From: a virus
Length of the DNA stretch: 64,000 bases
Direction: 5' to 3' (one strand)
Virus record (IMG/VR): IMGVR_UViG_3300027754_000047
Location: 62,001 to 126,000 of that record
Position 1 is the first letter of the stretch. Each line of letters begins with the position of its first letter. The notes below the pieces were generated by a model. That model made no database searches. It was not told where the DNA came from and was given only the letters and a program-made list of their open reading frames with translations. A program made the position numbers and the translations under genes. Of this stretch, positions 21,830 to 52,143 are shown one piece after another.

Positions 21830-22371
21830 CAAGCAGCTCCTTTGGGTAAAAGTTCCTTAAATTTATCTAAATATATAGGTTTTAGCAACAAGTCTTGCTT
21901 AGCAGATTCTACCACATGTGCAGGTAACCTATCTAACATAGCTAGCCTATGCGCAACGCAATACACAAACACACATGAAAACTCATTTTTAGAATCTAGT
22001 AAGTGCTCTATTACGTCTGCGTCAGGCAACCTGCTGGCTAAGCGATCAAACATGTTTTCCAATAAAATGGATATTCGATCGTACTCTAGGTCCGGCTTAC
22101 CTGCAGCCACATAACTAAATATAAGTGGCTGCAGGTGATTGGGCGTTTGAGGTAGAGCTGGGTAGTAGTGATTACAAGCCCAGTCTATAAACGAACGAGG
22201 ATCTACTTGTAATTCGTTACAGCTTGCAGCTAACTTTGTGTAACTGGCGGCTTGCTTAACGCTGTATCTTATGCTGCGGTATGCTTGAATACCAGCAGTG
22301 CTTCCTATCTTTTTGGCAAATAGCTCTTTTACATCATCTCCGCTTACAAGAGTAAATCCTGAATTTGCCAT
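21829..22371 (-). CDS. hypothetical protein upstream of DnaB-like helicase (180 aa)
   Basis: A 180-residue all-helical protein without recognisable motifs. It is translationally linked to the helicase (TGATG) and overlaps the SF2 helicase gene by 28 bases. Phage helicase loaders are often small helical proteins encoded beside DnaB, so a loader or adaptor role is a reasonable inference from position only. Confidence 0.7.
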   Translation of the reverse strand: MANSGFTLVSGDDVKELFAKKIGSTAGIQAYRSIRYSVKQAASYTKLAASCNELQVDPRSFIDWACNHYYPALPQTPNHLQPLIFSYVAAGKPDLEYDRISILLENMFDRLASRLPDADVIEHLLDSKNEFSCVFVYCVAHRLAMLDRLPAHVVESAKQDLLLKPIYLDKFKELLPKGAA

Positions 22372-23777
22372 TTCTTTTCCTCGTAGTTTGCGAATCGGGA
22401 TTTAGATCTACGCGCAGCCCAGAAGTCAAAGAAGTCACCAAAGTCCACCAAGATACCTTTAACCTTGCCTGCTGTAATACGGCAGACTCGCCCAGGCATT
22501 TGAATGTCTTTAATAGGACTGGCCCCGCCATCAGCTCGCACTATAACGGAGAGTTGAGGAAAATCAACTCCCGTACTCCAGATTCCTGTTGCAATAACCC
22601 GCTTAGCTGTACCTGCACTAAAATCATTGCGCAGTTTTTCAACTTGCTTCTTAGTAATAGGCTCGCCTTCTAGTAACTTGCGTTGCTTGAAGTAAGTAGC
22701 TGACTCTGCATCCATATTGCCGTACACAACTTCAAAGTCCGGCAACAACTTTTTTAATTCTAATGCATGTTCGATCTTATCTACCAGTATGAGAATCTGA
22801 GGATCTTTATCTGTAATCCGCTTAGGTACCTCGTCGTAGATAACCCTAGCAATAGCGTTATTGCGAGCATGGTTCGCCCAATACGCTAAACGCAAGCGCT
22901 TAACGTCAGACGAGTACTTACGTATTGCATCCACTGGCTCGCAGGCCCAATTGACTCGCCATACTTCAATTGGTACCACCAAGCCTAGGTCAACTCCGTC
23001 CTCGTAATCAACCTTGCAGATCTTATTACCAAAGTAGGCCTCAATAGCCAGGTTGCTGTTATCCAACCTTTGATCTGGACTAGCAGAATAAGAAATCATT
23101 TTGCAGCCCTCGAACTTAGGGTAGTACTCCAGGAAACTCGGAGTCAAAAGTTCGTGGACTTCATCTAATTGCACTATATCGAACTTGTCCAACTCCAGGT
23201 GCCCTAAGGATCCAGACGTTGCAACAAGGGGATTGCCTTCTAAATGTTTATCGGAGTTCCAAACTCCTGTAGTAGAAAACACTGCAGCCAAACGCTTGTA
23301 CAACTGATTACAAACGCTTTTAGATTTTGTGATTACCAGATGGCGCTGCTTAGGATAAAGCTGCACTATCTTTTCAACCACTACTCCCTTGCCGAAGCCA
23401 GTAAGAGCATCGACAATGCCGTTATCTGCTTTGCATATAGCATCTAACACTTCTAATTGCCCTGGCCTAAGCCCGACTATTTTGTCGAGCTTAGGCACCG
23501 GTAATTGCTTCTTACGCAGGTCAGTATACTGGGGAGCGTACCCTGTCTTTGCCAACAGGTGTAACGTTCGCTCCAGTAGTCCGCACGGAAAGTACATCCA
23601 GCCGTCATTGACAGCAAAGAGTTCTACTTCCTTACCTACGTACCTAGGGGCCCGACCCGGCTCTCGTACCTGGCTCCTATGAATATATGTGAACTCCTTA
23701 CGTAGCCCGTCACAATGGGGCCCTTCTGGAGTGCGCAAATAGCGCATGATTCGCTGTAGTACAACTGGTTTTGACAT
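22344..23777 (-). CDS. SF2 DNA helicase, UvsW/DEAD-like
   Basis: A 477-residue superfamily 2 helicase. Seen in order: LRPGQLEVLDAI (Q-like region), Walker A ALTGFGKG near residue 125, motif II DEVH near 202, motif III-like SYSASPD, then the second RecA lobe with ILILVDKIEHALELKKLL, VIATGIWSTGVDFP and motif VI QMPGRVCR near 425. T4 UvsW-type helicases remodel branched DNA in recombination-dependent replication. I start at the ATG 23777, which has AAAGGAAA five bases upstream; a longer frame would intrude into the Rad50-like gene. Confidence 0.88.
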   Translation of the reverse strand: MSKPVVLQRIMRYLRTPEGPHCDGLRKEFTYIHRSQVREPGRAPRYVGKEVELFAVNDGWMYFPCGLLERTLHLLAKTGYAPQYTDLRKKQLPVPKLDKIVGLRPGQLEVLDAICKADNGIVDALTGFGKGVVVEKIVQLYPKQRHLVITKSKSVCNQLYKRLAAVFSTTGVWNSDKHLEGNPLVATSGSLGHLELDKFDIVQLDEVHELLTPSFLEYYPKFEGCKMISYSASPDQRLDNSNLAIEAYFGNKICKVDYEDGVDLGLVVPIEVWRVNWACEPVDAIRKYSSDVKRLRLAYWANHARNNAIARVIYDEVPKRITDKDPQILILVDKIEHALELKKLLPDFEVVYGNMDAESATYFKQRKLLEGEPITKKQVEKLRNDFSAGTAKRVIATGIWSTGVDFPQLSVIVRADGGASPIKDIQMPGRVCRITAGKVKGILVDFGDFFDFWAARRSKSRFANYEEKKWQIQDLLL

Positions 23778-31746: not shown

Positions 31747-34422
31747 TTAATGCAGATTTATAGCCTGTTTAAGGAAGGCTGTACGCATGCTTTTCATGCG
31801 CTTAGTGGCCGTAACTAGAGAGTTCCATAAGGGTTTAGGGCATACCAGCTTAGTTTGGTCATCCACGGTTAACTCTACGGCTCCTAACTCCTTAAGGTGG
31901 TTTATAGCTGCTACCCAGTCCACTATAGGTAGGTAGAAGAACCTCATTTGCCCCAATAGGGCAGTTAGATCAACGGTGACAGTATCATCTAGGGGGTTCT
32001 TAAGTACTACCGGCTTTCGCTTAGGTTGAGGGCCGGTAAACGTCTTAAACATACCTGACTCTATACCTTCTTGAATTAAATTGATCAAATGAATCCCTGC
32101 TGCATTAGTGTTTATGTAGCCCTTTTCGGATACAAACCGCTTAGCTAGTGCTACCGAGTTAACAGGCACTCCTAGGGATTGCGCTAGTAGATTTATGTGG
32201 TCTAGTAACGCCACGCTATTGAGCGGCCTAACTGTCAACATTAATTGTAGTAATAGCGGGAACATCTTCTCACTATTCAGTAAGGCGGTACTTTCACCGG
32301 TTAAGGGAATGTCTGCCCGTATAAAACTCCAATCTTTATCCTTACCTATAGCGGCAGCATTTAACGCATGAGTAACGACCAAGCTGTTACCTCCTTGCCC
32401 TTCTAGCCATCTGCTCAGCAACTTAGGACTAGATCTAGCTCCGTCGATAGCTACTGGCAAGTGATGTAGTATAGCCAACTCCTTGGCTTCATCTAGGTCT
32501 TTTTTAGAATTCAAAGCTACAGTAACTAGGCCGAGGTCTATACGCAGTAAGTCAAATACATACTCTGCTAAGGAGCCTTTAGCGCCGACAAGCAAAGTGT
32601 TAGTGCGAGTGCCTTGTTCTATGTTGTTGTAAATGTTAGCTAATACTGTTGCAAGGCCGGCCAGGTAAGCGGCGGCTTCTCCCCCAGGGGCTAATAGAGG
32701 CGTTAAACAGTTAATTGTATCGCCTGCCATCATACTGACCTCAGCAGCAGGTACCGGCTCTTGTGCTATTACAAACGGCATTCCTACTCTGATTTGTTGG
32801 GGGTCGATAGACATTAACGGAGTATTAAACCGAGTAGTTTCTGGGTCGTAACCTACATACCCTTGAACTGCATGTACTTCCGGGCTGCTAAAGCGTAGAA
32901 CAACGTCTAAGAATTTCTTGCGAATGCTTTCAGCTATATAGGGCTGAATAGGAACAACTCCAGCAGCCAATAGAGTAGCTATTACAGTCTTAGGACTGGA
33001 CTCCAAAGCTTCCTCATCTACTTGAAAGTTAATTTGCTGGTCATCTACCATAATGTAACCAAAGATCGATCCAGTGCCATCATGCTTGTTTCGACATATA
33101 TAGGTTACCCGCACTAGGAAATTAGTTACTGCTTCGTCTGGTATTTCCCTGGACCCTTGAATCCACAGCTTTCCATCGCGCTCCAAGAGAATTTTACCGC
33201 CCATCATTATAGGTTGGGAAGTAAAACTGTGGGTTAGGAGTTGGGCTATCTCAACTCTAACCTCTTGTGGGCAAGCAGCAAGAATTAAGTTCTTTTGGAA
33301 TTCAGTAAGGTTTAAAGCTTCTAAAGTAACTTTACTCTTTCCTAGGCCTTGACTAAGCAAGTCCGCCGTTAAGTAGTCAACAGGATCCTGCAGTTTGTAC
33401 TTGGCAATTTCTTTATGAATAATTGGCATTAGGTTATTTTGCCATAACTTAGCCACCTTCTCGGTTGGCCGCCATATATAAGGGGCATCTACGTCCAACA
33501 CCTTGAAACCTCGAATACTTACACAGGTCTTAAAGAAGGCAGTATCCGGGTCATCTTGCCAAACTACGGACTGGCCCCGTAGCGCTGTGCAGTCCAATTC
33601 CCCTACAAATCCCTTAGCTACCACCGCTATTTTGTTATAACGCTCTAAAGTGCACTTATGGTGAATTCTGGCTGCTTGCAGCGGGTGGGCCATTATGTAC
33701 GTAGTGTCGGCGTTACGTAAAGTAGCCTCGCCTAAGCCGCAAAAACCACAAGCTCGTTCGGTAAACATGTTGTGGTATAGCAGCAGGTCTTTAGGGCCAA
33801 TAAGGCCAAAGCCGCAAATGAATCCAGGCTTCATGTAAAACGGCATTACCAAAGCCCCTTCAGCGTACTTAGGAATTCCGGTTAAAGAGTCTTGTAGTAA
33901 GTCTTCTAATTCCCACCTAGGCATATAACCAAACCAATTGATAAGGCCTCTGTTGAAGGTATCTTGGCCTGACCAAAGGTTAAGTTCATTTAATCGACCT
34001 ACTGCTAAGTCGGCAGCCCTAGGGTACATGTTGGCCCTAGCCTTTTCCCAAAGCAATTGGATTCGGTTGTAGTAGGTATCGTAGAAACTACAATACAAAG
34101 CAATATCAACTGCATTTAAGGACTTTACTTTGAGTTCTTCTTGTATTTGAGCTATAATGGCTTGCGGATTTGAGATTTTGTAAGCTTGCCCGTATAGTCT
34201 AATTGCTTCACCGGCCAGCTTACACCGGTCACAACAGAACCAGGCCTCAAAAGGGGCTACTCCAGTAATAAGCATTGATGCCGTCTTGCACTTAATGCAT
34301 TTAACAAACCCGCCGGTCTTAGCCGGACAGTCTAGGCCTAACAATTTAAGAATTTTAGTATAATGTAAGGCCGTGAAGAACTCTTCGGAAGGAACATCAT
34401 CTATGAGCCGTTGGATTGACAT
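31747..34422 (-). CDS. large protein with DnaG-like zinc finger (primase/helicase-like)
   Basis: An 891-residue protein. Residues 38-72 form a CHC2-like zinc finger (CIKC then CCDRC). Residues about 195-310 read like a degenerate Toprim segment (ALVMPFYMKPGFICGFG, then VVAKGFVGELDCTALRG and VVWQDDPDTAFF). Residues about 590-700 resemble the RecA-like part of DUF927-type helicases, with a poor Walker A (LLVGAKGSLAE) and no normal GKS/T. The C-terminus has winged-helix-like segments. It may be a primase-helicase relative that lost ATPase activity, or a plasmid-like replication factor. It is the only leftward gene inside the rightward packaging and virion block. Confidence 0.7.
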   Translation of the reverse strand: MSIQRLIDDVPSEEFFTALHYTKILKLLGLDCPAKTGGFVKCIKCKTASMLITGVAPFEAWFCCDRCKLAGEAIRLYGQAYKISNPQAIIAQIQEELKVKSLNAVDIALYCSFYDTYYNRIQLLWEKARANMYPRAADLAVGRLNELNLWSGQDTFNRGLINWFGYMPRWELEDLLQDSLTGIPKYAEGALVMPFYMKPGFICGFGLIGPKDLLLYHNMFTERACGFCGLGEATLRNADTTYIMAHPLQAARIHHKCTLERYNKIAVVAKGFVGELDCTALRGQSVVWQDDPDTAFFKTCVSIRGFKVLDVDAPYIWRPTEKVAKLWQNNLMPIIHKEIAKYKLQDPVDYLTADLLSQGLGKSKVTLEALNLTEFQKNLILAACPQEVRVEIAQLLTHSFTSQPIMMGGKILLERDGKLWIQGSREIPDEAVTNFLVRVTYICRNKHDGTGSIFGYIMVDDQQINFQVDEEALESSPKTVIATLLAAGVVPIQPYIAESIRKKFLDVVLRFSSPEVHAVQGYVGYDPETTRFNTPLMSIDPQQIRVGMPFVIAQEPVPAAEVSMMAGDTINCLTPLLAPGGEAAAYLAGLATVLANIYNNIEQGTRTNTLLVGAKGSLAEYVFDLLRIDLGLVTVALNSKKDLDEAKELAILHHLPVAIDGARSSPKLLSRWLEGQGGNSLVVTHALNAAAIGKDKDWSFIRADIPLTGESTALLNSEKMFPLLLQLMLTVRPLNSVALLDHINLLAQSLGVPVNSVALAKRFVSEKGYINTNAAGIHLINLIQEGIESGMFKTFTGPQPKRKPVVLKNPLDDTVTVDLTALLGQMRFFYLPIVDWVAAINHLKELGAVELTVDDQTKLVCPKPLWNSLVTATKRMKSMRTAFLKQAINLH

Positions 34423-35875
34423 AACTAGTGACGTCTCGAAAAGGTACTACAACGCATTTACACAACAAGTGGAGATGCCTGAGTACGTAAAAACCGCTAA
34501 TATCCTAACTGCTGAGGCTGCGGTTGGCATAGATTCTAACTCTTTTGCTGACTCGCAGCACCGAAAGTTTGCCTTAAATACTAAGGCTAACTGCTGGTGT
34601 TCAGCCCTTTATTTCTACGGAAACCAGTGTAACAACAAAGCTGAATGCAAACAAACCGAAGCTAAGCTAGCCTCGGCTGCAAATATCTGGGGTATCAACT
34701 CCGACATTGCGCGAATTAAGCAAGCATTTAGTACTCAAGCCGTAGAAGTTACCTACGCTTTAAGCTTTACCCATAAGGGTACGGTAGTCAACCGCTGCCC
34801 TGATCACACTAAGGCAGCTGCTACGGCTAGTGCTCAGTGGTTATTTGATAACCGGTTTAACTTTCCGGTAACCACGCAAAAGCAAGCAGCAGCCAGACTT
34901 TACGCTAAAGTCGATGCCGTTAAGTTAGGGCACTCTGCTGCCAACTACCTAGACCGCTTAGTTAATCCCGACTGCTACAGTACGCTTAATACTAAGATTG
35001 CATTAGCTATCACGGATCGGCTACACGCAGTACCTACAACTAAGTGGACTGAACTAGAAGACACCTTGCTTAAGTTCGCTAATTCGCTCAACGCAGCTCC
35101 CTTCGAGATTTGCCAAGAGCCTAGTATCATTGCAACTGCATTAGAAAACTTAGATGTAAAGCACGGGTTTACAGCTAAGTGGGGTTCTAGTTTTCAACAC
35201 CCTGTCGATGTTTGCTTCCGGGCTAACCTTACTAAGGTAGCTGCAGCTGTTGACAGTACTATTCACCTTGTTACAGGCACTCCCGTTGATCTTAATAAGA
35301 TCAGCGACTTTCAATTGGAAAAAGGCCTTAAGATTGCAGGGGATGATTTCTTAGCTTACTGTCAAACCGATGGTTTAAATGTAGACCGCAATAAAGCAGC
35401 TGAGATTTTACCTACGTTGCCTAAGCCTGAAGCTCATAGATTTGAAGCAGCCATTAAGAAAGCTGGGTACAACCCAGAAACAGCTTACACCTTAATGGAT
35501 CGTTTGTTTGATAAGGAGAGCCAAGGCCCAGCAGGCCCCCCAATGCCAGGCCCTGCCCCAGAGCCTAATCCTTATGCTTTACAGCAGGGCGAAAATGACG
35601 CAAACCACGGCAATCGCTTGCAAGGTATGCAACAAGCAGCAGATGCAGCTAGAGCCCAAGCTGACTCATTAAATGAAGACGCCGATCAAGCTGACCTAGA
35701 TATTGAAGCGGCCCAAGCTCAAGCTGAAGCCGACCAACACCGTAGAGCCCGCATTGTCAATCCTCAATTGCCTATGCAGCCTGAACTAAAGCAAGCTGCC
35801 GCCGAGCCGGCAGTAGGTTGCACCAACCCAGATTGCGATTGCCTAAACTGCACAAACCCCAACTGCGGTAAATAA
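34403..35875 (+). CDS. putative virion-associated protein with Cys-rich C-terminus (490 aa)
   Basis: I start at ATG 34403 because GGAAGGA lies about nine bases upstream; a GTG at 34373 would extend it. Residues 1-360 are mainly helical with no recognised domain. A Pro-rich hinge (GPPMPGPAPEPNP) is followed by a charged coiled-coil stretch rich in Ala, Gln and Asp. The last 18 residues are a Cys motif (CTNPDCDCLNCTNPNCGK) with zinc-knuckle-like spacing. Its place before small virion-type genes suggests a structural or assembly role. Its start overlaps the divergent 891-residue gene by 20 bases. Confidence 0.75.
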   Translation: MSRWIDITSDVSKRYYNAFTQQVEMPEYVKTANILTAEAAVGIDSNSFADSQHRKFALNTKANCWCSALYFYGNQCNNKAECKQTEAKLASAANIWGINSDIARIKQAFSTQAVEVTYALSFTHKGTVVNRCPDHTKAAATASAQWLFDNRFNFPVTTQKQAAARLYAKVDAVKLGHSAANYLDRLVNPDCYSTLNTKIALAITDRLHAVPTTKWTELEDTLLKFANSLNAAPFEICQEPSIIATALENLDVKHGFTAKWGSSFQHPVDVCFRANLTKVAAAVDSTIHLVTGTPVDLNKISDFQLEKGLKIAGDDFLAYCQTDGLNVDRNKAAEILPTLPKPEAHRFEAAIKKAGYNPETAYTLMDRLFDKESQGPAGPPMPGPAPEPNPYALQQGENDANHGNRLQGMQQAADAARAQADSLNEDADQADLDIEAAQAQAEADQHRRARIVNPQLPMQPELKQAAAEPAVGCTNPDCDCLNCTNPNCGK

Positions 35876-35882
35876 AACAACA

Positions 35883-36362
35883 ATGATTAAAATAGCCAAC
35901 AATTTAGCTAACCTAGTAATTAAGCAGGCTGAATTGACCTCTGTCAAACAATCAGAGTGGTGGAACCCTATGAGCTGGTTTAGCTCAAGTTCCCCTGCTC
36001 AGGTTGCTCCGCCTCCTTCGACTTTAGGCTCTATGGAGTCCCAGTCTGAACGGGACGAGGCCCGGCAAGAAGCATTAGATAAGCAGATGCAAGCAGCAGG
36101 ATTATTAAATAAGGGACCTCAGCAAGTAAGAGGCGGGGCCTTAATTAAACCAGACGGCAAAGCGGTTGATCCTGCTAGACAAGCTCAAGTAGATGCAGCC
36201 AACAATGCTCGTAAGGCAATTGGTATGACAACAGCACCAGTAGCTAAACCTATAGCTCCAGTAACTAGTACTGGAGCAGTAGTAACTAAACCTATAGCTC
36301 CAGTAGCTAAACCAAAAGGCGTACCTTCAGGACAAGGCGGAGCAGGAATAGACGAGTATTAA
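35883..36362 (+). CDS. leader-bearing virion-region protein (159 aa)
   Basis: The protein starts MIKIANNLANLVIKQAE, a leader shared with the 180-residue gene at 39629. The rest is low-complexity: a Trp-containing segment (SEWWNPMSWFSSSS), a charged helix (SERDEARQEALDKQMQAAG) and a Pro/Ala/Val repeat (PVAKPIAPV, three versions). No enzyme motif. The layout of short leader plus disordered body resembles phage internal head or scaffold-type proteins, which is inference. Confidence 0.75.
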   Translation: MIKIANNLANLVIKQAELTSVKQSEWWNPMSWFSSSSPAQVAPPPSTLGSMESQSERDEARQEALDKQMQAAGLLNKGPQQVRGGALIKPDGKAVDPARQAQVDAANNARKAIGMTTAPVAKPIAPVTSTGAVVTKPIAPVAKPKGVPSGQGGAGIDEY

Positions 36363-36372
36363 AATGATTAAA
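36361..36372 (+). repeat. 12-bp direct repeat, left copy
   Basis: AAAATGATTAAA. An identical copy lies at 38909-38920. The two bound a 2.5 kb segment carrying two genes with unusual codon use. The repeat contains the start codon and first codons of the shared leader sequence. Confidence 0.8.
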
Positions 36373-36399
36373 ATTGCTAACCCTAAATACAACCAATGA
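36364..36399 (+). CDS. 11-codon leader remnant ORF
   Basis: ATG at 36364 reads MIKIANPKYNQ and stops with TGA that overlaps the next ATG (ATGA). The first six residues equal the start of the 159-residue leader-bearing protein. This looks like the 5' remnant of a leader-bearing gene whose body was replaced, and it may still couple translation to the downstream gene. Confidence 0.5.
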   Translation: MIKIANPKYNQ

Positions 36400-37814
36400 C
36401 CGATTTTTTAGCTGAAGCATCCTCTATTTTTAATTCAAAGTTCCGAGTTCAGTTCGGCTTTGATGGAGTGCATTCAAGTGCGTTGAATGGACCAGGTGAA
36501 ATGAGAAGAGCGGCTGGTTGGGGAGCAGACTCTACTCAGTTTACTTGGAAGAGATTTGTAACTTTAGAGGACACGTATAATCCTTATCCCAATCAATTGA
36601 ATCCTTGGAGTCTTAAAAAATGGTACTTATGGGGGTGTAGAAAATTCCACTTCCATTGCCCCTTTGGGCGAGTGGCAGAAGGTAGGACTCAGGGAATGGT
36701 ATATGAGGTGGATCAATACCTAACTGCTAAAGATGGGCTGATTGTAGGAGAGCAGATACAAAACACTGCTTGTCCTTGGATGGTGTGTGATTTTGTTGTT
36801 GTCATTAAAGCCTTGACAACAGGGAAAAAAGGTACGCTAGACGCTGCAACCTGGAATGCTTGGACTAAGGGGCCGGATGCATGGTTTAACCCAAGTGAGC
36901 CTATCGACCTAATAGTCTATATTGGGGGTATGGCCGATCCAGCAATATCTGATGCGGCATTTGGGGCATACATCGATAGATGGGAAGCTTTGTTTAAAGC
37001 TGACCCAGCAGCGGGACTTAAAAGACTTAAAGCATCTGTTGCTCCACTAATCTCTGCTAACTGTAAAATTGGATTTGATGCCAGTGTTGCTGCTCCTGGA
37101 TCTGTTCCAGGTGCTAACGTACCACTAACATCTCAGAATAAGGAATTACAGCAAGGGTGGTGGACTTTTTGGAAATGGGTAGAGACTAAGATAGGTAAAC
37201 AAAGAATGTACGTTGAGTCTCATCCATTTAAAAAGGATGGCTTATCTAATCCTTACCTTGGCTATAATGTAATTGCAGACGACGATTGGTCCTATTCAAA
37301 GTGTTGCCCTGCTCAACCAAAAGGAGGAAGCGGAGCACACATGACTAGCGAGATGGGTGCAGCAGAGTTCTGGAGATGCATATGGCAAACTGCAGGAACT
37401 AGAACTCCTCTTATTTCAACTACTACTGGCGCTGTTACAGTGGCTGAAAGGTACGCATTCTTAGAAGCAGCAACAAAAAGCGTTACCAGTTTTCCTTGTG
37501 ATTTTGATGACTCAACTGAATTGAGACTAACCGCAGCAACTTGCTGTGAAGCAAATCACAACTACTATTGGGGAGATTTGTGGGCAGATATCATCGTGTA
37601 CCATTTATTGAATAAGCAACATATCCGGGGAGAAACAAATCCCAAAGGTAATAACACAAAGAACGGAATAATGGTTGGAGCAAGTCTTTTACAGATCTTG
37701 CCCTCGGCTTTTGTAGGAGACTCTAGATGTGATAGACAGTTTGGTGTTTTGTTTAAAACAAAAGACAGCTTCATAGAATATTTAGCAGAAAAGATGTCAC
37801 TTAGCTCCGTATAA
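36396..37814 (+). CDS. hypothetical cassette protein 1 (472 aa)
   Basis: A 472-residue protein rich in Trp and Cys with alpha/beta character (DGVHSSALNGPGEMRRAAGW; KKWYLWGCRKFHFHCPFG; PIDLIVYIGGMADP; KQRMYVESHPF). Alternating strands and helices with acidic and aromatic strand ends suggest a TIM-barrel or glycoside-hydrolase-like fold, but no catalytic signature is certain. Arginine is coded by AGA/AGG in 15 of 17 cases, against about 1 of 8 in the neighbouring 38934 gene, which points to foreign origin. It starts through an ATGA overlap with a leader remnant. Confidence 0.75.
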   Translation: MTDFLAEASSIFNSKFRVQFGFDGVHSSALNGPGEMRRAAGWGADSTQFTWKRFVTLEDTYNPYPNQLNPWSLKKWYLWGCRKFHFHCPFGRVAEGRTQGMVYEVDQYLTAKDGLIVGEQIQNTACPWMVCDFVVVIKALTTGKKGTLDAATWNAWTKGPDAWFNPSEPIDLIVYIGGMADPAISDAAFGAYIDRWEALFKADPAAGLKRLKASVAPLISANCKIGFDASVAAPGSVPGANVPLTSQNKELQQGWWTFWKWVETKIGKQRMYVESHPFKKDGLSNPYLGYNVIADDDWSYSKCCPAQPKGGSGAHMTSEMGAAEFWRCIWQTAGTRTPLISTTTGAVTVAERYAFLEAATKSVTSFPCDFDDSTELRLTAATCCEANHNYYWGDLWADIIVYHLLNKQHIRGETNPKGNNTKNGIMVGASLLQILPSAFVGDSRCDRQFGVLFKTKDSFIEYLAEKMSLSSV

Positions 37815-37841
37815 CTGCTAGTAATCAAAAAGGAAATCAAT

Positions 37842-38915
37842 ATGGCCGTACTGAGAAACTACATAGCATCCATACACGACATACATGAGTACTGGGTACG
37901 GCCTGTGCTAGCTCCTAGGCAGGATGCTGGCCAGAAGGGGTATAACCCTTTGTGTCAGGGAGCTGCCGTAAACTGGTCTGGCGTAAGCCTACGCTCTCGA
38001 GCGTTTGCGTCAGCCTTTCCAGTTGCAATGAGAATAAGCCTAGTGATACCGTTCAACGAAAACGATATCAACTTCTACAACACTGCAAATCCGTGCGTAG
38101 TGCTCATATCGCCAAGCCACGGGCTGGTGTGTCAGCATTATAGGGGAACATTCGACCGGGGCCCGAGCGAGGAATACACTTTCCTCGGTCAGTCCGGCAC
38201 TCGGCACACTCGAAACGTCACGAAGGCAACGCTAAACATAGGCGCCGACCATACGCTGTTGGAGTTTGCTTCTCCGTTTCCCGATGATGTCACGGTATAC
38301 GATCACATAGCAGACGTCAGGTACATACCGCAGGGCAGGACCCTATGGGTTCACGACTGCAACGGCAAGGCGTACAAGTTGCAAATGCGGTCTGCAATTT
38401 ATCGACAGGAAACTGTAAACGGAGCGCTAAAGTTTGTAGACAAAACTAACGGTTATGTTGCAGACGCGTTCCTAGACGCAAACAACCTGGGAGCAACGAA
38501 TGGCAATGTGGCTCCGACCATATGGGTGGGAGACAGCGGCTCTCCTACATTCGTTATTGACGACGCCGGACGAACGATATTCATAGGACTCTATTCAGGC
38601 GGAATGCATGTGGACGAGGCTGAGCTAGCTGCGATAAATGCGCAGTTGCAGCCCATGGGATATTCCGTTCAGCATGTGAAGCTATCCGCAAAGCTAGAAG
38701 ACGTAAACGGCGACGGAACTGTTGACGGATCGGATATGGCTATGGTGCTTTCTGCATGGGGAGCCGCACTCAAGGACGTCAACGGAGACGGAGTGGTTGA
38801 TGCACAAGATCTGGCTAAGGTCATGGCAGCTTGGGGTGCATACGAATTAGCAAGAAGTAGTGTTCCTGTTACAGCAATCGACGCGCCAATAAGTTCTAGT
38901 ACAATACGAAAATGA
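37842..38915 (+). CDS. trypsin-fold protein with dockerin-like EF-hand pair
   Basis: Residues about 40-260 show a chymotrypsin-fold pattern: VCQHYRG (His 98), ADHTLLEF (Asp 136) and WVGDSGSP (Ser about 232). Residues 287-298 and 312-323 are two calcium-binding loops, DVNGDGTVDGSD and DVNGDGVVDAQD, each followed by a helix ending in AWGA, as in type I dockerins. Proteolysis or calcium-dependent attachment to a cohesin-like partner is therefore possible. Isoleucine is coded by ATA in 15 of 19 cases, unlike neighbours. A second protein with the same trypsin-fold module is encoded at 49252-52143. An AAGGA lies seven bases before the ATG. Confidence 0.8.
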   Translation: MAVLRNYIASIHDIHEYWVRPVLAPRQDAGQKGYNPLCQGAAVNWSGVSLRSRAFASAFPVAMRISLVIPFNENDINFYNTANPCVVLISPSHGLVCQHYRGTFDRGPSEEYTFLGQSGTRHTRNVTKATLNIGADHTLLEFASPFPDDVTVYDHIADVRYIPQGRTLWVHDCNGKAYKLQMRSAIYRQETVNGALKFVDKTNGYVADAFLDANNLGATNGNVAPTIWVGDSGSPTFVIDDAGRTIFIGLYSGGMHVDEAELAAINAQLQPMGYSVQHVKLSAKLEDVNGDGTVDGSDMAMVLSAWGAALKDVNGDGVVDAQDLAKVMAAWGAYELARSSVPVTAIDAPISSSTIRK

Positions 38916-38920
38916 TTAAA
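38909..38920 (+). repeat. 12-bp direct repeat, right copy
   Basis: AAAATGATTAAA, identical to 36361-36372, immediately at the end of the trypsin/dockerin gene. It marks the right boundary of the proposed cassette. Confidence 0.8.
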
Positions 38921-38944
38921 CTGGAAGGCTATAATGCCCGTTAA
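38912..38944 (+). CDS. 10-codon leader remnant ORF
   Basis: ATG at 38912 overlaps the TGA of the trypsin/dockerin gene and reads MIKLEGYNAR before TAA. Only the first four residues match the leader family. It contains GGAAGG, which serves as the ribosome-binding site for the gene at 38934, so the sequence may be kept for that reason rather than for the peptide. Confidence 0.35.
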   Translation: MIKLEGYNAR

Positions 38945-39632
38945 AAGCGTTACATCTCAACAAACCTACCAGCAGTTATGGCAAGACCGGGGCACTATTG
39001 GCTCGGTTTTGTTAACCCTAGTCTTGGACTCTTATGGCCAAGAAATATTTGATATGGATCCACAAGGCTTTCGCCTAGAATTGGAAGAATGCTTTGGAGT
39101 AGCTGACATTCCTGCTATTAGCACTGACAAAGTGTGGACGTTGTGGTCTGCTTTAACCACAGACCTGGTACATACCGATCCAGCTACCTTTATTAATGCC
39201 GCTAATGTTTTAAACGGTACGCCGTTAAGCCACGACATCTTTGATATAGCAGACGTCTACGAGTGCGCTTGGGCTGTTACAGAATTAACGCTATTAGATC
39301 CTACTACTCCAGAGCGTTTAGGCTCCGGAGTGCGGCGGTATATAGGAGAGGTCTGTAAGGAGCAAGGCTTGTATAGGCCGCCAGAGACCCTAGTACAAGT
39401 AGCTGACTTTGGGGGGCGCAACTACGCTAGTAACATCGAATCGCATGCGGTAGATAATGTAGAACTACAAACTATGCTAAAGGCGCAGCAAGAGTTTTCC
39501 AATGATGTTAAGGCCTACGTCAATCGTCAAACCAACAAGCTTATGCTACAATTGAACAACACACCTCTAATTAACAAAGACTCAGCTAGTTGGAATAAGT
39601 TTGTCGGTAACTTTGGTAAGGTAACTAAATGA
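38934..39632 (+). CDS. hypothetical protein (232 aa)
   Basis: A 232-residue helical protein (TYQQLWQDRGTIGSVLLTLV; ADVYECAWAVTELTLLDP) with a helical, Gln/Asn-rich C-terminus. Codon use matches the phage background, unlike the two genes before it. It overlaps the next gene by ATGA. A structural or assembly role is inferred from position; no motif is recognised. Confidence 0.75.
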   Translation: MPVKSVTSQQTYQQLWQDRGTIGSVLLTLVLDSYGQEIFDMDPQGFRLELEECFGVADIPAISTDKVWTLWSALTTDLVHTDPATFINAANVLNGTPLSHDIFDIADVYECAWAVTELTLLDPTTPERLGSGVRRYIGEVCKEQGLYRPPETLVQVADFGGRNYASNIESHAVDNVELQTMLKAQQEFSNDVKAYVNRQTNKLMLQLNNTPLINKDSASWNKFVGNFGKVTK

Positions 39633-40171
39633 TTAAACTAGCAAACAACCTAACTAACCTAGTACTTAAGCAAGCCGGAGATCCTCAAGTAGGGTTTTCA
39701 GATGCTCAAGTTAAATGTACTCCTGGTATTGGGTGTAAGCGCTTATTGTCTAAAGCTGAGTTAGCCGAGGTTGCAGCAGCTGAAGCAAATATGCTACCTA
39801 ACTTATTTGCTCAGCAAGGCGACCCGGTAAGCAGCCTAGTGTCTAGTCCTGGTTGGGCAGGCATTGGCCACGGTATTCTAGGGGCAGGTCTAGGCGGCGG
39901 TGCAGGTTACCTAGGGGCCAATATGACCAATAATAACGCAGCCCTAGGCTCAGGTATAGGCGCTGCCGCAGGCGGCCTATTAGGCTTGATCTACGGCACA
40001 GTAAATCGCACTCGTACTAATAACGACATTATGGACCTAATGGAAGATTTGCCAGTAGGTGCAGACATCGGAGATATAGAAACGTTTCACGACCCTAAGA
40101 TTCGAGCTCAAATTGCAAGAGATTTCCAGCGCCAAATGTTGCGCCGAGGTATAGTTAACTCCTCTCAGTAA
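39629..40171 (+). CDS. leader-bearing protein with glycine-zipper segment (180 aa)
   Basis: The protein starts MIKLANNLTNLVLKQAG, the second full copy of the shared leader. Residues about 75-125 form a glycine-zipper pair of helices (GHGILGAGLGGGAGYLGA; GSGIGAAAGGLLGLIYG), able to insert into or oligomerise in a membrane. The C-terminus is charged and helical. Phage proteins with such segments can be internal virion proteins that act during DNA ejection, which is inference here. Confidence 0.75.
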   Translation: MIKLANNLTNLVLKQAGDPQVGFSDAQVKCTPGIGCKRLLSKAELAEVAAAEANMLPNLFAQQGDPVSSLVSSPGWAGIGHGILGAGLGGGAGYLGANMTNNNAALGSGIGAAAGGLLGLIYGTVNRTRTNNDIMDLMEDLPVGADIGDIETFHDPKIRAQIARDFQRQMLRRGIVNSSQ

Positions 40172-40180
40172 GAAAATATA

Positions 40181-40852
40181 ATGACCCCCTACAGCCACCA
40201 CCTCCCATCACACATTAAACAAAGCGCTAAGAAGCCTAAGGCCCAAGATCTATTAGATACTGAGTCTTGGACCAGCGCCTTTAACGATTACCTCCCGGGC
40301 CTGGATGGTAGCGGAGTGCCGTCTATGGCTAGAACTGGCCGAGCATCAGCTATGGCTAGAGCTATAGGTATGGAAGAGCCTTTTTCCGTTAAGTATCCCC
40401 AGACCTCTCAAATCCTTACTATGCTTGGTACTACGGCCTTAGGCGCTACTGCAGGAGGCGTAATAGGCAATGCAAGTTCCCCTGGGGACGGTGGGATAGG
40501 TTTATTGCTTGGCGGCTACGCAGGCCTACTCGGCGGAGCTCTAGGTAATAGCTACTGGCGCCGGGATCACCTAAAGAACATAGCCGCAGAATTTGAAAAA
40601 GCCAAAACTTTAAAGCCCACTCCGCCTGAATTATTCGGTGAACTTGGCCGAGCCTTTACTCCCGGTAGCGGCATCCACAACCTAGCGGATGTGCGAACTT
40701 ACAACTACCTAAAGGGCAAAGATCCAAACAACCCTTCGCGCTACAGCGCTGAGGATTTAATGGGGTCAAGCTTTCCAATAATTGGAGGCTACAGTCAGAA
40801 TCGAGACGCCACAGACGAGCTTGCTAAGCCCCGTAAGAAGACTAAGAAGTAA
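40181..40852 (+). CDS. glycine-zipper protein (223 aa)
   Basis: The N-terminus (HHLPSHIKQSAKK) loosely resembles the leader of the preceding genes. Residues about 85-125 form a glycine-rich hydrophobic hairpin (GTTALGATAGGVIGNA; GLLLGGYAGLLGGALG). The C-terminus is basic (KPRKKTKK). Together with the previous gene it makes a pair of membrane-active-looking proteins at the end of the rightward block, just before a terminator. Confidence 0.75.
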   Translation: MTPYSHHLPSHIKQSAKKPKAQDLLDTESWTSAFNDYLPGLDGSGVPSMARTGRASAMARAIGMEEPFSVKYPQTSQILTMLGTTALGATAGGVIGNASSPGDGGIGLLLGGYAGLLGGALGNSYWRRDHLKNIAAEFEKAKTLKPTPPELFGELGRAFTPGSGIHNLADVRTYNYLKGKDPNNPSRYSAEDLMGSSFPIIGGYSQNRDATDELAKPRKKTKK

Positions 40853-40871: not shown

Positions 40872-40907
40872 AAAAACAAACCCGACACTAAGTCGGGTTT
40901 GTTTTTT
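40872..40907. terminator. bidirectional intrinsic terminator
   Basis: An 11-bp stem (ACAAACCCGAC at 40876-40886 with GTCGGGTTTGT at 40892-40902) and a 5-base loop, flanked by an A-run on the left and a T-run on the right. It can end transcription in both directions and lies exactly between convergent genes. Confidence 0.92.
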
Positions 40908-47711: not shown

Positions 47712-49255
47712 ACCGATTTACCTAATATGCTAATAGTTCTGAGCTGGGTTTGGCCTGCTACAGGTGAGTAATTTTGAATAGCTGATCCGAATCCATTAGC
47801 GCCTAATGGCCCTCCGGCAACTAAGGTATTACCTTCGTAAACACCCCAAGCCTTAGTAGCTGCAAGCACTTTAACAGAATACGTTGCGTCTAAATTGTGT
47901 ACGTACTGCCCGTAACTCCGCCGAAGGTAAGTACCCGTCCAAGGTAAGCTCATCGTTGCATTAACTACTAATGCGTTGTAGTTGACAGCATCTAGCGCAT
48001 TAGGTGGGCCCACCAATAATTGATAGGTTGTTCCGTTAAATGTAATATTACGCTGGCCCGTTAGGTTGTACTGCAGGGGGCCAAAGCAGCGCAAGCTGGG
48101 GCCCTCGTTGGTGTACAGTTGCCATTGGTTTATAGTAGTATCCAGGTGCAGTTCTACTAACTGCTCTCCTAGTAGGTATTGGCCGGTTACGGTTGGTTTA
48201 AAAATTGTAATGGCGGCCCTATGGGGGTGTTGTTGAGCTGCTGTGAATCTGTAGTACTCGTACCCAGTAGCAGAACTAGCTTCCAACAACACTTCAGTAC
48301 CTGTTGTAATAAAGGTAGTAGGGTTTGGCGTACTCGCCAGTAGCAGTCGAGGCTCAACACATTCTATATTGGGAATAGCTAATCTAGGGCCGGTAAGAGA
48401 CTCTAAAGCTACATCTGAACTTACTAGAAACCCGCCTGCTGGAATATCAGTGTCCCTTAACTTACCGTATAAAGGCTTATCTAGTACCAAAATAATTTCA
48501 TTGATTCCCTGCAAATTACTAACAGGCTTTATTCCGTTAATTTGCGTTATAGGTTGAAAATTACAAGTAGCTGTTTCTGGGCGTTTACCACATTCGCCTA
48601 CGTAGTTAGCTAGTTGGTCCTTTACGTCTGCGGTAGAGCCGGCAAAACCAAGGCTAATTGTTTGCCCATATTTGGTTGCTACTATGTTGTTTTGGCCTAC
48701 TAAGGTTACTGCCCCACTTAGGGTGCTAACAAACCCCTCCTTAGCAAGGCTAGTTACTCCACCGTAGTTGTACCGACTAACTACCGAACTGCATAAGCCT
48801 GCACTCGCAGGCCCAGCAAAAGACCAGTTAGCCACAAGTTTAATTCCGTGGCCAAAGGTAACCCAACCGCCTACTCCGGGTAGCTGGCCGGTTATAGCAA
48901 TTGGAGTCCCTGCTTGAGCTACAGTCCTTAGCGCAGTTACCGTACCTAATACTACCGCATGAAAAGCGGTGTACTCGGCTGACTCGTAACTAGTCGATGG
49001 CGGCGATGCTGCATCATAGTAAAGGGCGGTTTGGCTGCCCATAATAATCATGCTTACTATTTCGCTACTTACGTTAATGCTAGCTACGAATGCGGAGTTA
49101 GCCACAGCAGCCGGAATAGTTAAACGCATATCTGTCAACAAAGATTGGACAATAGAGATGTCTGCAGCAGTGTAAGGCTCATATGTAGCCCGCACATCTA
49201 TAGGGTATTGTCGAAAGTTATTTTCGTTTAAGAAACTTTTTGCGACAACTCTCAT
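47708..49255 (-). CDS. structural paralog, N-x-N-x-x-R-x-YP family (515 aa)
   Basis: The N-terminus reads SFLNENNFRQYPIDVRATY. Near residue 185 it has TLSGAVTLVGQNNIVATKYG and near 235 ITQINGIKPVSNLQGINEI, the other elements of the family. The C-terminal half is an extra beta-rich region. It starts with an overlap to the trypsin-fold gene. Probably a peripheral tail or baseplate protein; exact role unknown. Confidence 0.75.
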   Translation of the reverse strand: MRVVAKSFLNENNFRQYPIDVRATYEPYTAADISIVQSLLTDMRLTIPAAVANSAFVASINVSSEIVSMIIMGSQTALYYDAASPPSTSYESAEYTAFHAVVLGTVTALRTVAQAGTPIAITGQLPGVGGWVTFGHGIKLVANWSFAGPASAGLCSSVVSRYNYGGVTSLAKEGFVSTLSGAVTLVGQNNIVATKYGQTISLGFAGSTADVKDQLANYVGECGKRPETATCNFQPITQINGIKPVSNLQGINEIILVLDKPLYGKLRDTDIPAGGFLVSSDVALESLTGPRLAIPNIECVEPRLLLASTPNPTTFITTGTEVLLEASSATGYEYYRFTAAQQHPHRAAITIFKPTVTGQYLLGEQLVELHLDTTINQWQLYTNEGPSLRCFGPLQYNLTGQRNITFNGTTYQLLVGPPNALDAVNYNALVVNATMSLPWTGTYLRRSYGQYVHNLDATYSVKVLAATKAWGVYEGNTLVAGGPLGANGFGSAIQNYSPVAGQTQLRTISILGKSV

Positions 49256-52143
49256 AATTCTACCCCTAAACCTACAGAGAATGGACTTACAGGTACATTC
49301 ACATATTCAAAGCTATCTGGGTTGGGCAAGCAACGACTATACAAGCCACGTTGGCCCTGGCCGCTGCTAAGGGGATAGGACGCTGTGTATATGAAGCCCA
49401 CAGGATCCGTTACACTAGGCGGTATAGCAAACTCACTTCCACTAGGTGTTTGTATTACAAATTCAGTACCGGAGGTATTGGGCGATAGTCCAAGGTTTAC
49501 GATACCGCACGACACGTATTGCTCGGCAGCGGCATCAAAGACCTTAAGGTTTAGTTCCAACTGAGCTCCATTTGGACCAATGTATACGAATTCTGGAAAC
49601 GTAATGCGGTATACATCAGGATCGTCAGGATTCGCCGCAGGAGTTTTTGTTATGCTTTGCGCCTTAACTGGGGCGCACGGATTCACCGACTTCTTGTTTG
49701 GCGCAATATAAATGGTCCTAGTGGTATCCGCAATTACATTCGAGCTGCAAGGTTCGCAATTTTCGGTACCTTCGTAGCTAAAGTGTAACCCGGTAGTTAT
49801 CGGGTAAGTCGTATTGTTTAGGTTGACTATCTTCCTAAACGTAGGATCCACAATAACCAATCCGGCTGTAAGCATAATATACCCGGTGCAAGGCTCCATG
49901 CAATTAGCAGGCAAAGCTGCAGAGGTGGAACAAGCCGACGGTATTGGTAAAGCTGCAACATCAGCGGTAACGGTTAAGAAACCGGTTTCGCCCAAGGTGG
50001 AAATCACTTGAGCTCCAGGGTTTACTCCCTTAAAGTACACATAGGCTCCTTCCTTTAATACCGCAATCATTAAAGGAGTATTTGCCTCTAATGTATGCTG
50101 TACTGCTGCAGTAGAGCCGTCTAAGCTGGTTATAGTTTCGGTAGCTGTCATTGCCTCAGCATTAAATACCGACACCCTTAAAGAGGTGGAGCAAAGGCAA
50201 ACATTTACCTTTTTGTTGTTCTCAGCCAGTGCTTGAATCTGCAATTTGAAGTTCTGCTGCGGCCAAGTTCGGAATCTAGGATTAACTCTATCGTGAGTAC
50301 TGCAGCAAGCCAACTCATTTGCAAATTGGGTAGCCACTGAGTTATAAATTTTAGCTATTCGATTAAATTCTTTTGCCAATCGAGCATAGATTATACCGTA
50401 AGCTTTAACAAATCTTTGAGTGCCTTCGTAGTCAGTACACCTGCAGCAAGGAGCGCAATGGCTGTCTAGTTTTATTCGGTTTTTTCTTAAGTCAGCATCC
50501 AGGCTTAGGCAACCTGCGTTTTCTGGGGCTAGGTTAACTGCGCCCTTACTATCAGGAGTAAGCCCATTAATACTGGTTAAGAATTCATCAGTAGTAGGAA
50601 CCCCTATACAAGGCTGCAGCCCGGTACCTGCCCCTGCTACAACACCTAGATTAAGTACAGCTGGCACATTAGTAGGCCAAGTAGAACTTATATCGTAGTT
50701 AGTGCCTGCTTTCAGTTCCACTATAGTTTTAGCGTAATTAACATTTACATCTAACGGTAACTGGTTAGAAACTAACGTGGTTAATCCTACAATAGGCTCT
50801 AAGGCTGCCGGCCCTAGCCAGTATTCCTGGCCGCCAGCTTCAATAGGCGGAGTACTCATACGTAGGTCTTCTCTAAAGACGTAAGTAAAGAAGCAATCAA
50901 GTGCAACGTTTTTAATGAAGCCAGTTACGTACTTGTAGTCGTGGGTAAGTTCTGCGGCATTCGTGGAGTTAAAATCACTGTTGGTAAACAGCACACCGCC
51001 ATCAGCAATAAGCTCGCACTTAAATCGATAAGTTAACGGCGCTCCAGGAGTAATTTGTAGGCGGCTTATACGGGCATTCTTTATAAGTTCAACTGGCCCG
51101 ACTAATTTAGCGTAAACTAACGGGGCTGCGCTTGAGGTTACGTTCATAAACGCCATGCCATTACTTTCTGCTTCTTCTAAGAAACCTGCAGCATAAGTCA
51201 TGGAACTAGTAGTTGGATCCGCACCTCCTACGAAACCTAAATTGGCTCTGCTGGTAACCCCTGCAGTAGCCAATTTAGGCGCCAGCCAATCCCAAGTAGC
51301 ATTGTCTCCAAAGTGAACATTGGGGGCGCCACTAAGGTAAAAAGCGCCATATAAGTAAGTTTGCCCATTGTGGGTAACTAGAAGCGGAGTGCCGCTGTCG
51401 CCAACCCAAAATTGCAAGGGTATTGGAAAATCTTGATTAACAGTGTTGTAGCCTACTAAGGAGTCATGAGGCATAGTGATTCCGCCGGTATCACTCACGC
51501 TTGCCGTTACTGTGTTTTGGTACGCCACAAAACTACCATTAGGAGTCTGCGCCCAAAACATGGTGTAGCTGGGCACTGTTACCGGGTCAACTATTTCATA
51601 CGGAGTTACGTGCTGTAACTCTTGCTCAGTTAGAGGAGGGTCAAACTCGTATAAGTTCAAATCCCCCTTCGTGGATAAAAAGGTACCGACTCGGGTAATT
51701 ATTTGACCGTTATTACCTAGTAGAGTAATAGTGGTACTAGTAGTGCTAGCGCCTGTAAAGTGCTTACACGCTAAGAAGTGCCTATCACTAACTAGGTAAA
51801 GCGGCGGCGAGCCGGGATTCCAGTTGTTTGTATCTAATAGATTAGTATACGGGTAAGTTTCTGCTAAGTAGTTTGAGAGAGAAGGTTTGTAATAGAATTC
51901 CCAAGGCGTCAGGTATGTGTTAGAGCCCCTATTCCTTGCTTGCAGGCCGCTCCAATTAGGTACGGCTATACCGCCTAAACCTAGATTCCAAAGCCCGGCG
52001 GTATTATATCCTGTTACTTGGGCTTGGACTCGGCTATCTACTGGCTCATGTGCACTGGGCGGCAACTCAACAACCAACACCATCGGCGCCTCGTTAAAGG
52101 TGTAGATGTCGTGAGCAACGGCGTTGTAGTTACCGATCTTCAT
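49252..52143 (-). CDS. large structural protein with trypsin-fold N-terminal module (963 aa)
   Basis: Residues about 50-290 carry a chymotrypsin-fold pattern: FLACKHFTG (His 128), GDLNLYEFD (Asp 161) and WVGDSGTP (Ser about 250). The segment PNWSGLQARNRG matches VNWSGVSLRSRA of the cassette protein at 37842, so the two modules are homologous. Further on is SINGLTPDSKGAVNL followed by a Cys cluster (CAPCCRC), shared with its downstream paralogs, and several beta domains with Cys pairs. A tail protein with protease activity, or a protease fold used for self-processing or binding, is likely. Confidence 0.78.
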   Translation of the reverse strand: MKIGNYNAVAHDIYTFNEAPMVLVVELPPSAHEPVDSRVQAQVTGYNTAGLWNLGLGGIAVPNWSGLQARNRGSNTYLTPWEFYYKPSLSNYLAETYPYTNLLDTNNWNPGSPPLYLVSDRHFLACKHFTGASTTSTTITLLGNNGQIITRVGTFLSTKGDLNLYEFDPPLTEQELQHVTPYEIVDPVTVPSYTMFWAQTPNGSFVAYQNTVTASVSDTGGITMPHDSLVGYNTVNQDFPIPLQFWVGDSGTPLLVTHNGQTYLYGAFYLSGAPNVHFGDNATWDWLAPKLATAGVTSRANLGFVGGADPTTSSMTYAAGFLEEAESNGMAFMNVTSSAAPLVYAKLVGPVELIKNARISRLQITPGAPLTYRFKCELIADGGVLFTNSDFNSTNAAELTHDYKYVTGFIKNVALDCFFTYVFREDLRMSTPPIEAGGQEYWLGPAALEPIVGLTTLVSNQLPLDVNVNYAKTIVELKAGTNYDISSTWPTNVPAVLNLGVVAGAGTGLQPCIGVPTTDEFLTSINGLTPDSKGAVNLAPENAGCLSLDADLRKNRIKLDSHCAPCCRCTDYEGTQRFVKAYGIIYARLAKEFNRIAKIYNSVATQFANELACCSTHDRVNPRFRTWPQQNFKLQIQALAENNKKVNVCLCSTSLRVSVFNAEAMTATETITSLDGSTAAVQHTLEANTPLMIAVLKEGAYVYFKGVNPGAQVISTLGETGFLTVTADVAALPIPSACSTSAALPANCMEPCTGYIMLTAGLVIVDPTFRKIVNLNNTTYPITTGLHFSYEGTENCEPCSSNVIADTTRTIYIAPNKKSVNPCAPVKAQSITKTPAANPDDPDVYRITFPEFVYIGPNGAQLELNLKVFDAAAEQYVSCGIVNLGLSPNTSGTEFVIQTPSGSEFAIPPSVTDPVGFIYTASYPLSSGQGQRGLYSRCLPNPDSFEYVNVPVSPFSVGLGVEL

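Follow-up and report, generated by a model that had tools for sequence, protein, structure and literature searches.

A hypervariable slot for leader-tagged genes in an uncultured myovirus-like phage family and its probable uptake of two putative enzyme genes

We analysed 64,000 nucleotides (hereafter the window) of a 129-kb IMG/VR virus record, the remainder of which was covered in five stretches. The region between the conserved genes g343 and g389 is probably a hypervariable slot for leader-tagged cargo genes of an uncultured myovirus-like phage family, and would have taken up two putative surface-acting enzymes. The slot is part of a short operon on the forward strand, which follows downstream of the terminase gene, and would normally hold zero to three leader-tagged genes. 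Here it would also have gained two leaderless genes, c363 and tryp, from a phage accessory pool, with truncated leader starts left behind at both slot edges. The region comprises the following features:

34412-35875, + strand: left flanking gene g343, conserved left slot edge, with homologs (start supported by homologs near MSRWID, about 34406; ORF listed from 34373)
35883-36362, + strand: leader-tagged slot gene, 159 aa, with the leader MIKIANNLANLVIKQA; its cargo has no kinship with slot genes of relatives
36361-36372, + strand: 12-bp repeat AAAATGATTAAA, left copy (leader start)
36364-36399, + strand: truncated leader MIKIANPKYNQ*, its stop overlapping the c363 start codon (ATGA)
36396-37814, + strand: c363, 472 aa, phage accessory family, putative glycoside hydrolase-like protein
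37842-38915, + strand: tryp, 357 aa, predicted PA-clan protease domain and C-terminal type I dockerin (residues 286-328)
38909-38920, + strand: right copy of the 12-bp repeat, which opens the mini-ORF MIKLEGYNAR* (38912-38944)
38934-39632, + strand: g389, 232 aa, conserved flanking gene at the right slot edge, with homologs
39629-40171, + strand: second leader-tagged gene, 180 aa, with the leader MIKLANNLTNLVLKQA; in relatives its conservation begins only at residue 25, after the leader
40181-40852, + strand: 223-aa glycine-zipper-like protein, N-terminus MTPYSHHLPSHIKQSA possibly related
40872-40906, strand not assigned: terminator-like hairpin closing the forward operon
49252-52143, - strand: 963-aa protein downstream of baseplate genes, with an N-terminal tryp-like domain

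Homologs of g389 (64-70% identical) were found in 23 related records. In 22 of these a g343 homolog (53-60% identical) was present, always upstream of g389, while the 23rd record (L021) starts too far downstream to include it. The interval between both genes ranged from 6 to 1936 nt in the relatives, compared to 3058 nt here, and was either empty or occupied by 1-3 unrelated genes, of which almost all started with MIK(V/I/L)A(N/S/D)N(L/I). Many of the records are near-duplicates, such that about 12 independent slot states were sampled. Empty as well as filled slots occurred among close relatives: for L017, with an interval of 6 nt, and L011, with one of 712 nt, the flanks match at 95% and 91% identity, which falls at the slot edges. 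The replacement in close relatives spans the end of the upstream gene to the start of the downstream gene. The site is a hypervariable slot. Among 50,697 annotated phage records no relative of this phage family was found.

Slot genes were often alike only over their first ~16-25 residues. The leader itself (~16 residues, MIK[VIL]A[NSD]N[LI]...K.A) precedes otherwise unrelated bodies, and arrays of leader genes were present in three relatives (L012, L052 and L053). For the 24 distinct leader proteins third codon positions differed in 0.49 of the comparisons versus 0.04 for second positions, some residues being fixed by the search pattern. By analogy the leader may be a packaging or capsid-targeting tag, and the slot would then supply exchangeable, virion-carried proteins like the internal-protein locus of T4. 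A Gp23 model gave no match to a gp23-type capsid protein in this record, and the search controls likewise remained without a match. Neither c363 nor tryp carries the leader; only truncated leader ORFs precede them, and the tag therefore cannot package them.

Both inserted ORFs, of 472 and 357 aa, lie between the repeats as originally described. Homologs of c363 occurred in nine IMG/VR records (53-61% identical), and no sequence match was obtained in Pfam, PHROG or the PDB. The structure model, of low confidence (pTM 0.65, pLDDT 59), predicts a TIM-barrel-like alpha/beta fold, and the fold search returned weak TIM-barrel matches including GH5 and GH6 (best PDB E of 0.007, none at E ≤0.001). In the phage record L007, c363 is fused to a Heparinase_II_III_C-containing protein; the resulting protein of 1936 aa is encoded beside the capsid gene gp23. 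We consider c363 a putative sugar-degrading, glycoside hydrolase-like enzyme, a reading that rests on the topology and one fusion given the low-confidence model.

The product of tryp models as a PA-clan (trypsin/3C-like) protease with a dockerin. The dockerin, with its duplicated calcium-binding motif, was detected at E=1.3e-7 (Dockerin_1; PF00404 at 32.1 bits, cut-off 22.9) and is present in 7 of 7 tryp homologs; homologous loci number 14. The fold is a PA-clan double beta-barrel (Foldseek best E=6e-7, probability 1.00; model pLDDT 57), and among the best 50 of the 419 Foldseek matches at E ≤0.001 nearly all were PA-clan proteases. No Pfam protease match was obtained, even at E 1. A candidate triad of H99, D136 and S232 (sequence positions) with a GDSG motif is invariant in the 7 homologs. 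The 963-aa protein opens with 276 aa that are distantly homologous to the protease domain of tryp (hhalign probability 97.8, E=1e-12) and retain the GDSG motif. The dockerin would bind a cohesin-type partner, which might be a host protein; this record, possibly incomplete, gave no cohesin match. Within the family the only other tryp gene was found in G015, ~58 kb from the slot of that phage. In the tryp tree the window copy was not resolved with the G015 copy, such that relocation of tryp within the family is neither claimed nor excluded.

Elsewhere, both gene families have neighbours in common. A cohesin-family gene adjoins c363 in L005 and L010. In L061 it is one gene away from c363, and in L048, L049 and L051 it follows tryp at a distance of two genes; an SNase-like nuclease gene is a common neighbour of either family. 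The same site, marked by gp23, a tail-tube-like gene and UvsY, is occupied in L007 by the c363-containing protein and in L050 by tryp. Both c363 and tryp are families of a single phage accessory pool, and both are mobile. It is possible, although we hold this only tentatively, that phages carry a mobile cohesin-dockerin module consisting of the dockerin protease, a cohesin scaffold, the c363 hydrolase and the SNase-like nuclease, which can be fitted to virions or to host surfaces, with its enzymes being exchanged in this family via the leader-tagged cargo slot.

The c363-tryp pair was found in the slot of none of the 23 related records. Its codon use is atypical: as originally predicted, 15 of the 19 Ile codons in tryp are ATA, and the gene at 38934 (g389) has 1 of 8 AGA/AGG and 3 of 10 ATA codons. 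For c363 the predicted AGA/AGG bias was found as well, the count being 14 instead of 15 out of 17. Against the genome-wide synonymous usage of 117 genes, z-values of 5.1 for c363 and 8.4 for tryp were obtained, compared to at most 1.2 for the directly flanking genes. The absence of the pair from the 23 related records, its atypical codons and the homologs in other contexts elsewhere support that c363 and tryp are a horizontally acquired insertion. The deviations concern different codons and go in opposite directions in GC3 (AGA/AGG with low GC3 in c363, ATA with high GC3 in tryp), so that a single donor is unlikely. Since the phage encodes a tRNA-Arg(UCU) and a CAU tRNA resembling tRNA-Ile2, AGA/AGG and ATA are readable in the infected cell, and part of the codon oddness may come from the phage's own tRNAs. 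Pattern-limited scans of genome contigs with degenerate patterns revealed no homolog in a bacterial or host source, and INPHARED contained no homologs of c363 or tryp.

The insert is bounded by the 12-bp direct repeat described in the original prediction, with copies at 36361-36372 and 38909-38920. No further copy exists in the window (0.02 expected) or in the 129-kb record. As had been claimed, the repeat is the beginning of the shared leader gene: four copies of the leader start ATGATTAAA lie in the window (35883, 36364, 38912 and 39629; 0.73 expected), all within the operon. The 11-codon leader remnant at the left edge is real, with its stop lying over the ATG at 36396, and is identical to the leader at 35883 in 16 of 18 nt. 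The right copy matches the start of the next leader gene (g396) equally well, over 12 nt. The ATGA junctions were likewise found at both edges of the insert, at the c363 start and at the tryp stop, which sits inside the right repeat (38912-38915). No obvious ribosome site precedes 36396; the left scar, which overlaps the c363 start, therefore probably couples c363 translation to the upstream gene. Neither RNA elements in the region nor an own promoter or terminator for the inserted genes were identified.

A pair of 12-mers is ordinary in itself, since the window contains 211 maximal direct-repeat pairs of at least 12 nt, 19 of which are spaced by 0.5-4 kb. Only two of these 19 have both copies at gene edges, 36361/38909 and 38910/39627, the latter being the leader start again. 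Shuffled 220-nt flanks had a 12-mer in common with P=0.0022, a post hoc figure. Just before g389 the leader start was absent in 23 of 23 related records. The significance of the repeat is lower than originally claimed.

These data bear directly on the original prediction, in which short-homology recombination at leader starts brought in both genes as one cassette in one event and left the 36361/38909 repeats. Leader starts at both edges, the rarity of gene-edged pairs at this spacing, the shuffled flanks and the homology that leader arrays in relatives would provide agree with it. Yet the operon contains four occurrences of this start, relatives do not conserve the right copy before g389, homologs elsewhere lack a leader start, c363 and tryp differ in GC3 and biased codons, and a strain lacking exactly 36361-38908 was not found among the 23 relatives. 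We thus retain insertion into a variable slot, while a single cassette joined via two leader starts appears unlikely. Leader-mediated joining as such is possible, because scars are present at both ends. A target-site duplication or recombination site was rejected, as homologs elsewhere lack flanking repeats. The same holds for a transposon or integron cassette: only c363 and tryp lie between the repeats, such that the claimed absence of a transposase was borne out, and no repeats recur at homologs elsewhere.

We also find it doubtful that c363, tryp and the cohesin-family protein form an exported surface module, produced during infection and active on the infected cell or outside it, with matrix or exclusion functions, rather than as virion parts. 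The cohesin homologs in L010, L051 and L061 as well as L003 neighbours have signal-peptide-like starts, which in the three cohesins would fit export better than virion assembly, and the other tryp genes are located outside the g343-g389 slot. However, c363 and tryp themselves are devoid of signal peptides and share their operon with leader-tagged genes, the protein encoded near the baseplate genes begins with a tryp-like domain, and c363 in L007 is part of the 1936-aa protein beside gp23. That the pair already resided in the slot of a common ancestor, was lost in all sampled relatives and owes its bias to the phage tRNAs is quite improbable: the two tRNAs do match the AGA/AGG and ATA excess, but about 12 distinct slot states are without the pair, the directly flanking genes lack the bias, and the sole tryp of a relative lies far from its slot. 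A contig chimeric at the slot is least credible and very nearly dismissed. Neither junction was seen in the other IMG/VR records searched, from which same-genome records were possibly hidden; yet the two flanks come from one phage family, with their order unchanged, and the gene overlaps are seamless at both insert edges.

In the preferred reading of a cargo slot with two acquired genes, c363 and tryp would probably act jointly at the host surface, c363 on polysaccharide and tryp on protein. If true, the internal-protein principle of T4 would be extended to a separate lineage, and the MIK leader would be an easy sequence handle for finding effectors that are packaged or injected. Linkage of the cohesin-family genes with the dockerin-protease genes suggests that phages may use cellulosome-type docking, of which no report was found in a literature search of open-licence papers.

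Morons are extra genes of foreign composition between conserved genes of phage structural operons. c363 and tryp resemble them in composition and placement, but have no own promoter or terminator identified, and their translation is probably coupled via leader scars. Like tail-associated depolymerases and virion proteases, the proteins include a c363-heparinase-type fusion (L007) and a protease domain encoded near baseplate genes here, although c363 falls in no known family. As in cellulosomal pairs, tryp ends in a type I dockerin and a cohesin-family gene lies near tryp or c363 homologs in other phages; unlike these pairs, the dockerin here is encoded by a phage and linked to a protease, and this record yielded no cohesin gene. 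In the giant phages SPN3US and phiKZ, N-terminal sequences of several ejection proteins are thought to direct these virion proteins to the prohead (PMC5694885, PMC10052503); these propeptides mostly exceed 100 residues and are proven by mass spectrometry, whereas the slot leader has ~16 residues and is known from sequence. The internal protein locus of T4-type phages, named with its capsid targeting sequence (CTS), encodes highly diverse proteins with only 10-20 N-terminal residues in common, and its content is diverse between relatives (PMC3012670, PMC5694885). The leader sequence here is a different one, the slot also has leaderless genes, and packaging into the prohead and cleavage by the prohead protease would be predicted by analogy; as in the T4 locus, the slot proteins combine a short common N-terminal leader with otherwise unrelated bodies in a hypervariable locus.

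Mid-window, a forward operon (34.4-40.9 kb, plus strand) ends at its 3' side in a terminator-like hairpin. Its genes, two of which carry the leader, a short shared N-terminus, in full, are arranged in the following order:

g343, conserved gene at the left of the slot (about 487-500 aa)
leader-tagged gene of 159 aa
36396-37814, plus strand, c363 (472 aa)
37842-38915, plus strand, tryp (357 aa)
g389, conserved gene at the right of the slot (232 aa)
leader-tagged gene of 180 aa
glycine-zipper-like gene of 223 aa

The window covers bases 62001-126000 of an IMG/VR virus record that comprises 129,472 bases in all, and it encodes a family A DNA polymerase, a ribonucleotide reductase, a baseplate J-like protein and the terminase large subunit. 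Three further features were noted:

16393-19236, minus strand, 947-aa ORF with DNA polymerase A and 3'-5' exonuclease domains and an N-terminal uracil-DNA glycosylase superfamily domain
59665-60414, minus strand, putative phage sigma factor (PHROG 351, E=5.5e-6)
L029:2323-2591 (record 22323-22591), minus strand, group I intron scoring above the Rfam gathering threshold

The 12-bp sequence AAAATGATTAAA, originally predicted to bound a cassette of c363 and tryp, indeed occurs exactly twice and is the beginning of the leader ATGATTAAA. This leader start is present in four copies in the window, every one within the operon: two open full leader proteins, and the other two are cut short. The left truncated leader (MIKIANPKYNQ*) shares the predicted ATGA overlap with c363, while the right one (MIKLEGYNAR*) overlaps two genes, tryp at its end and g389 at its start. 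Of the 211 maximal direct repeats of at least 12 nt in the window, only two pairs have both copies at gene edges with a spacing of 0.5-4 kb. Since both pairs involve leader starts, and four such starts lie in the operon, the repeat is real but belongs to the leader system and is not diagnostic of a single insertion event. Ribosomes leaving the upstream gene can probably reach c363 through the left scar; tryp and g389 each have their own purine-rich ribosome site.

A search with g389 provided 23 records of relatives. A g343 homolog lies upstream in 22 of them, the remaining one starting too late. The g343-g389 interval measures 3058 nt in the window and 6, 18, 298, 503, 671, 712, 817, 1256-1257, 1555, 1576 or 1936 nt in the relatives, whose slot genes are mostly unrelated to one another beyond the leader. 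Leader genes are arrayed in twos or threes at three loci (L012, L053, L052), and the leader-like stretch HIKTANNIKQMLRKQA inside a slot protein of 519 aa (L024:7433-8992) suggests a gene fusion or polyprotein. Between L011 and L017 the two flanks are 95% and 91% identical, with the slot filled in L011 and empty in L017. Identity drops where g343 ends and where g389 begins, so slot exchange in relatives swaps the whole interval, and leader starts do not form its two boundaries. Among the 18 related records searched in full, c363 was found in none and tryp in one (G015), about 58 kb from that record's slot. Insertion into a variable slot is supported, whereas the data do not establish entry as a single cassette through recombination at the 12-bp repeats; c363 and tryp may have been acquired through recombination between leader starts.

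The motif M-I-K-[VIL]-A-[NSD]-N-[LI], often with K-x-A near position 16, is common to 24 distinct proteins of this phage family. Over leader codons 2-8, third positions differed in 0.49 and second positions in 0.04 of comparisons, where the search pattern fixed several residues and the free third positions alone are informative. The leaders are thus old, diverged in DNA yet kept as peptide, as expected of a protein-level tag. Two more leader-tagged genes are found on the opposite strand, away from the slot (record about 26.9-27.8 kb; L029:7151 and L029:7737, minus strand); in one of them the leader is followed by an EF-hand-like stretch. The bodies of several tagged proteins are glycine-rich and membrane-like, as would fit injected proteins, and the leader may send cargo into the virion. 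As c363 and tryp both lack it, they would need another way in, for example the dockerin, or would alternatively act at the cell surface without packaging.

The model of tryp has a PA-clan protease fold (best Foldseek hit E=6e-7, probability 1.00), H99, D136 and S232 are invariant across seven homologs, and the dockerin scores above the Pfam cut-off. The protease call rests on fold and motif, since no Pfam protease model matches tryp. A related protein is encoded downstream of the baseplate genes, with counterparts in G023-G025:

49252-52143, minus strand, 963-aa protein whose N-terminus is a divergent copy of the tryp protease domain (hhalign E=1e-12)

For c363 no known family matched; its model has an alpha/beta topology (pTM 0.65, pLDDT 59) with weak best fold matches, mostly TIM barrels. 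In L007, c363 forms part of a larger protein of 1936 aa that also has a heparinase II/III-like domain.

In a comparison of 117 ORFs from the record, codon use departs from that of the genome in tryp (z=8.4, GC3 0.52, ATA 15/19) and, in a different direction, in c363 (z=5.1, GC3 0.34), but not in the directly flanking genes. The atypical usage claimed by the original prediction is thus found in both genes, with AGA/AGG at 14 of 17 in c363 correcting a minor miscount. Homologs of c363 are mostly in low-GC phages rich in AGA/AGG (L003, L005, L010, L061), and such a phage would fit as donor; no tryp homolog examined was ATA-rich. ARAGORN detected only two tRNAs in the record, one Arg(UCU) and the other with a CAU anticodon:

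L029:5982-6055 and L030:5893-5968, both minus strand

By eye, the CAU anticodon arm TCGACTCATAATCGA resembles tRNA-Ile2 rather than elongator Met. The two tRNAs correspond to the codon classes over-represented in c363 and tryp, so that the phage can probably read both. At L048/L051 a CAU tRNA lies 4.3 kb from tryp.

Both families occur beside the same partner genes in unrelated phages. One partner is a phage-encoded cohesin-family protein, which exceeds the Pfam cohesin cut-off in L005 and L010 and has homologs in L051 and L061; three of the four have signal-peptide-like starts:

L051:11427-12674
L005:8782-9978
L010:8671-9996
L061:6285-7610

In L005 and L010 the cohesin-family gene adjoins c363, and in L061 an SNase-like gene stands between the two. 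In L048, L049 and L051 the cohesin-family gene lies two genes downstream of tryp. Both neighbourhoods also have the SNase-like gene in common. A gp23, tail-tube-like and UvsY neighbourhood occurs in both L007 and L050, holding the c363-containing protein in the former and tryp in the latter. Genes beside c363 in L003 carry dockerin-like repeats, a weak match. A Tubulin/FtsZ-family GTPase gene (L061:9403-10593) adjoins c363 in L061. Given these recurring partners, c363 and tryp are unlikely to have met in the window by coincidence, even if codon use points to a separate source for each. New here are a leader-tagged slot in an otherwise unknown phage family and a cohesin/dockerin association in phages.
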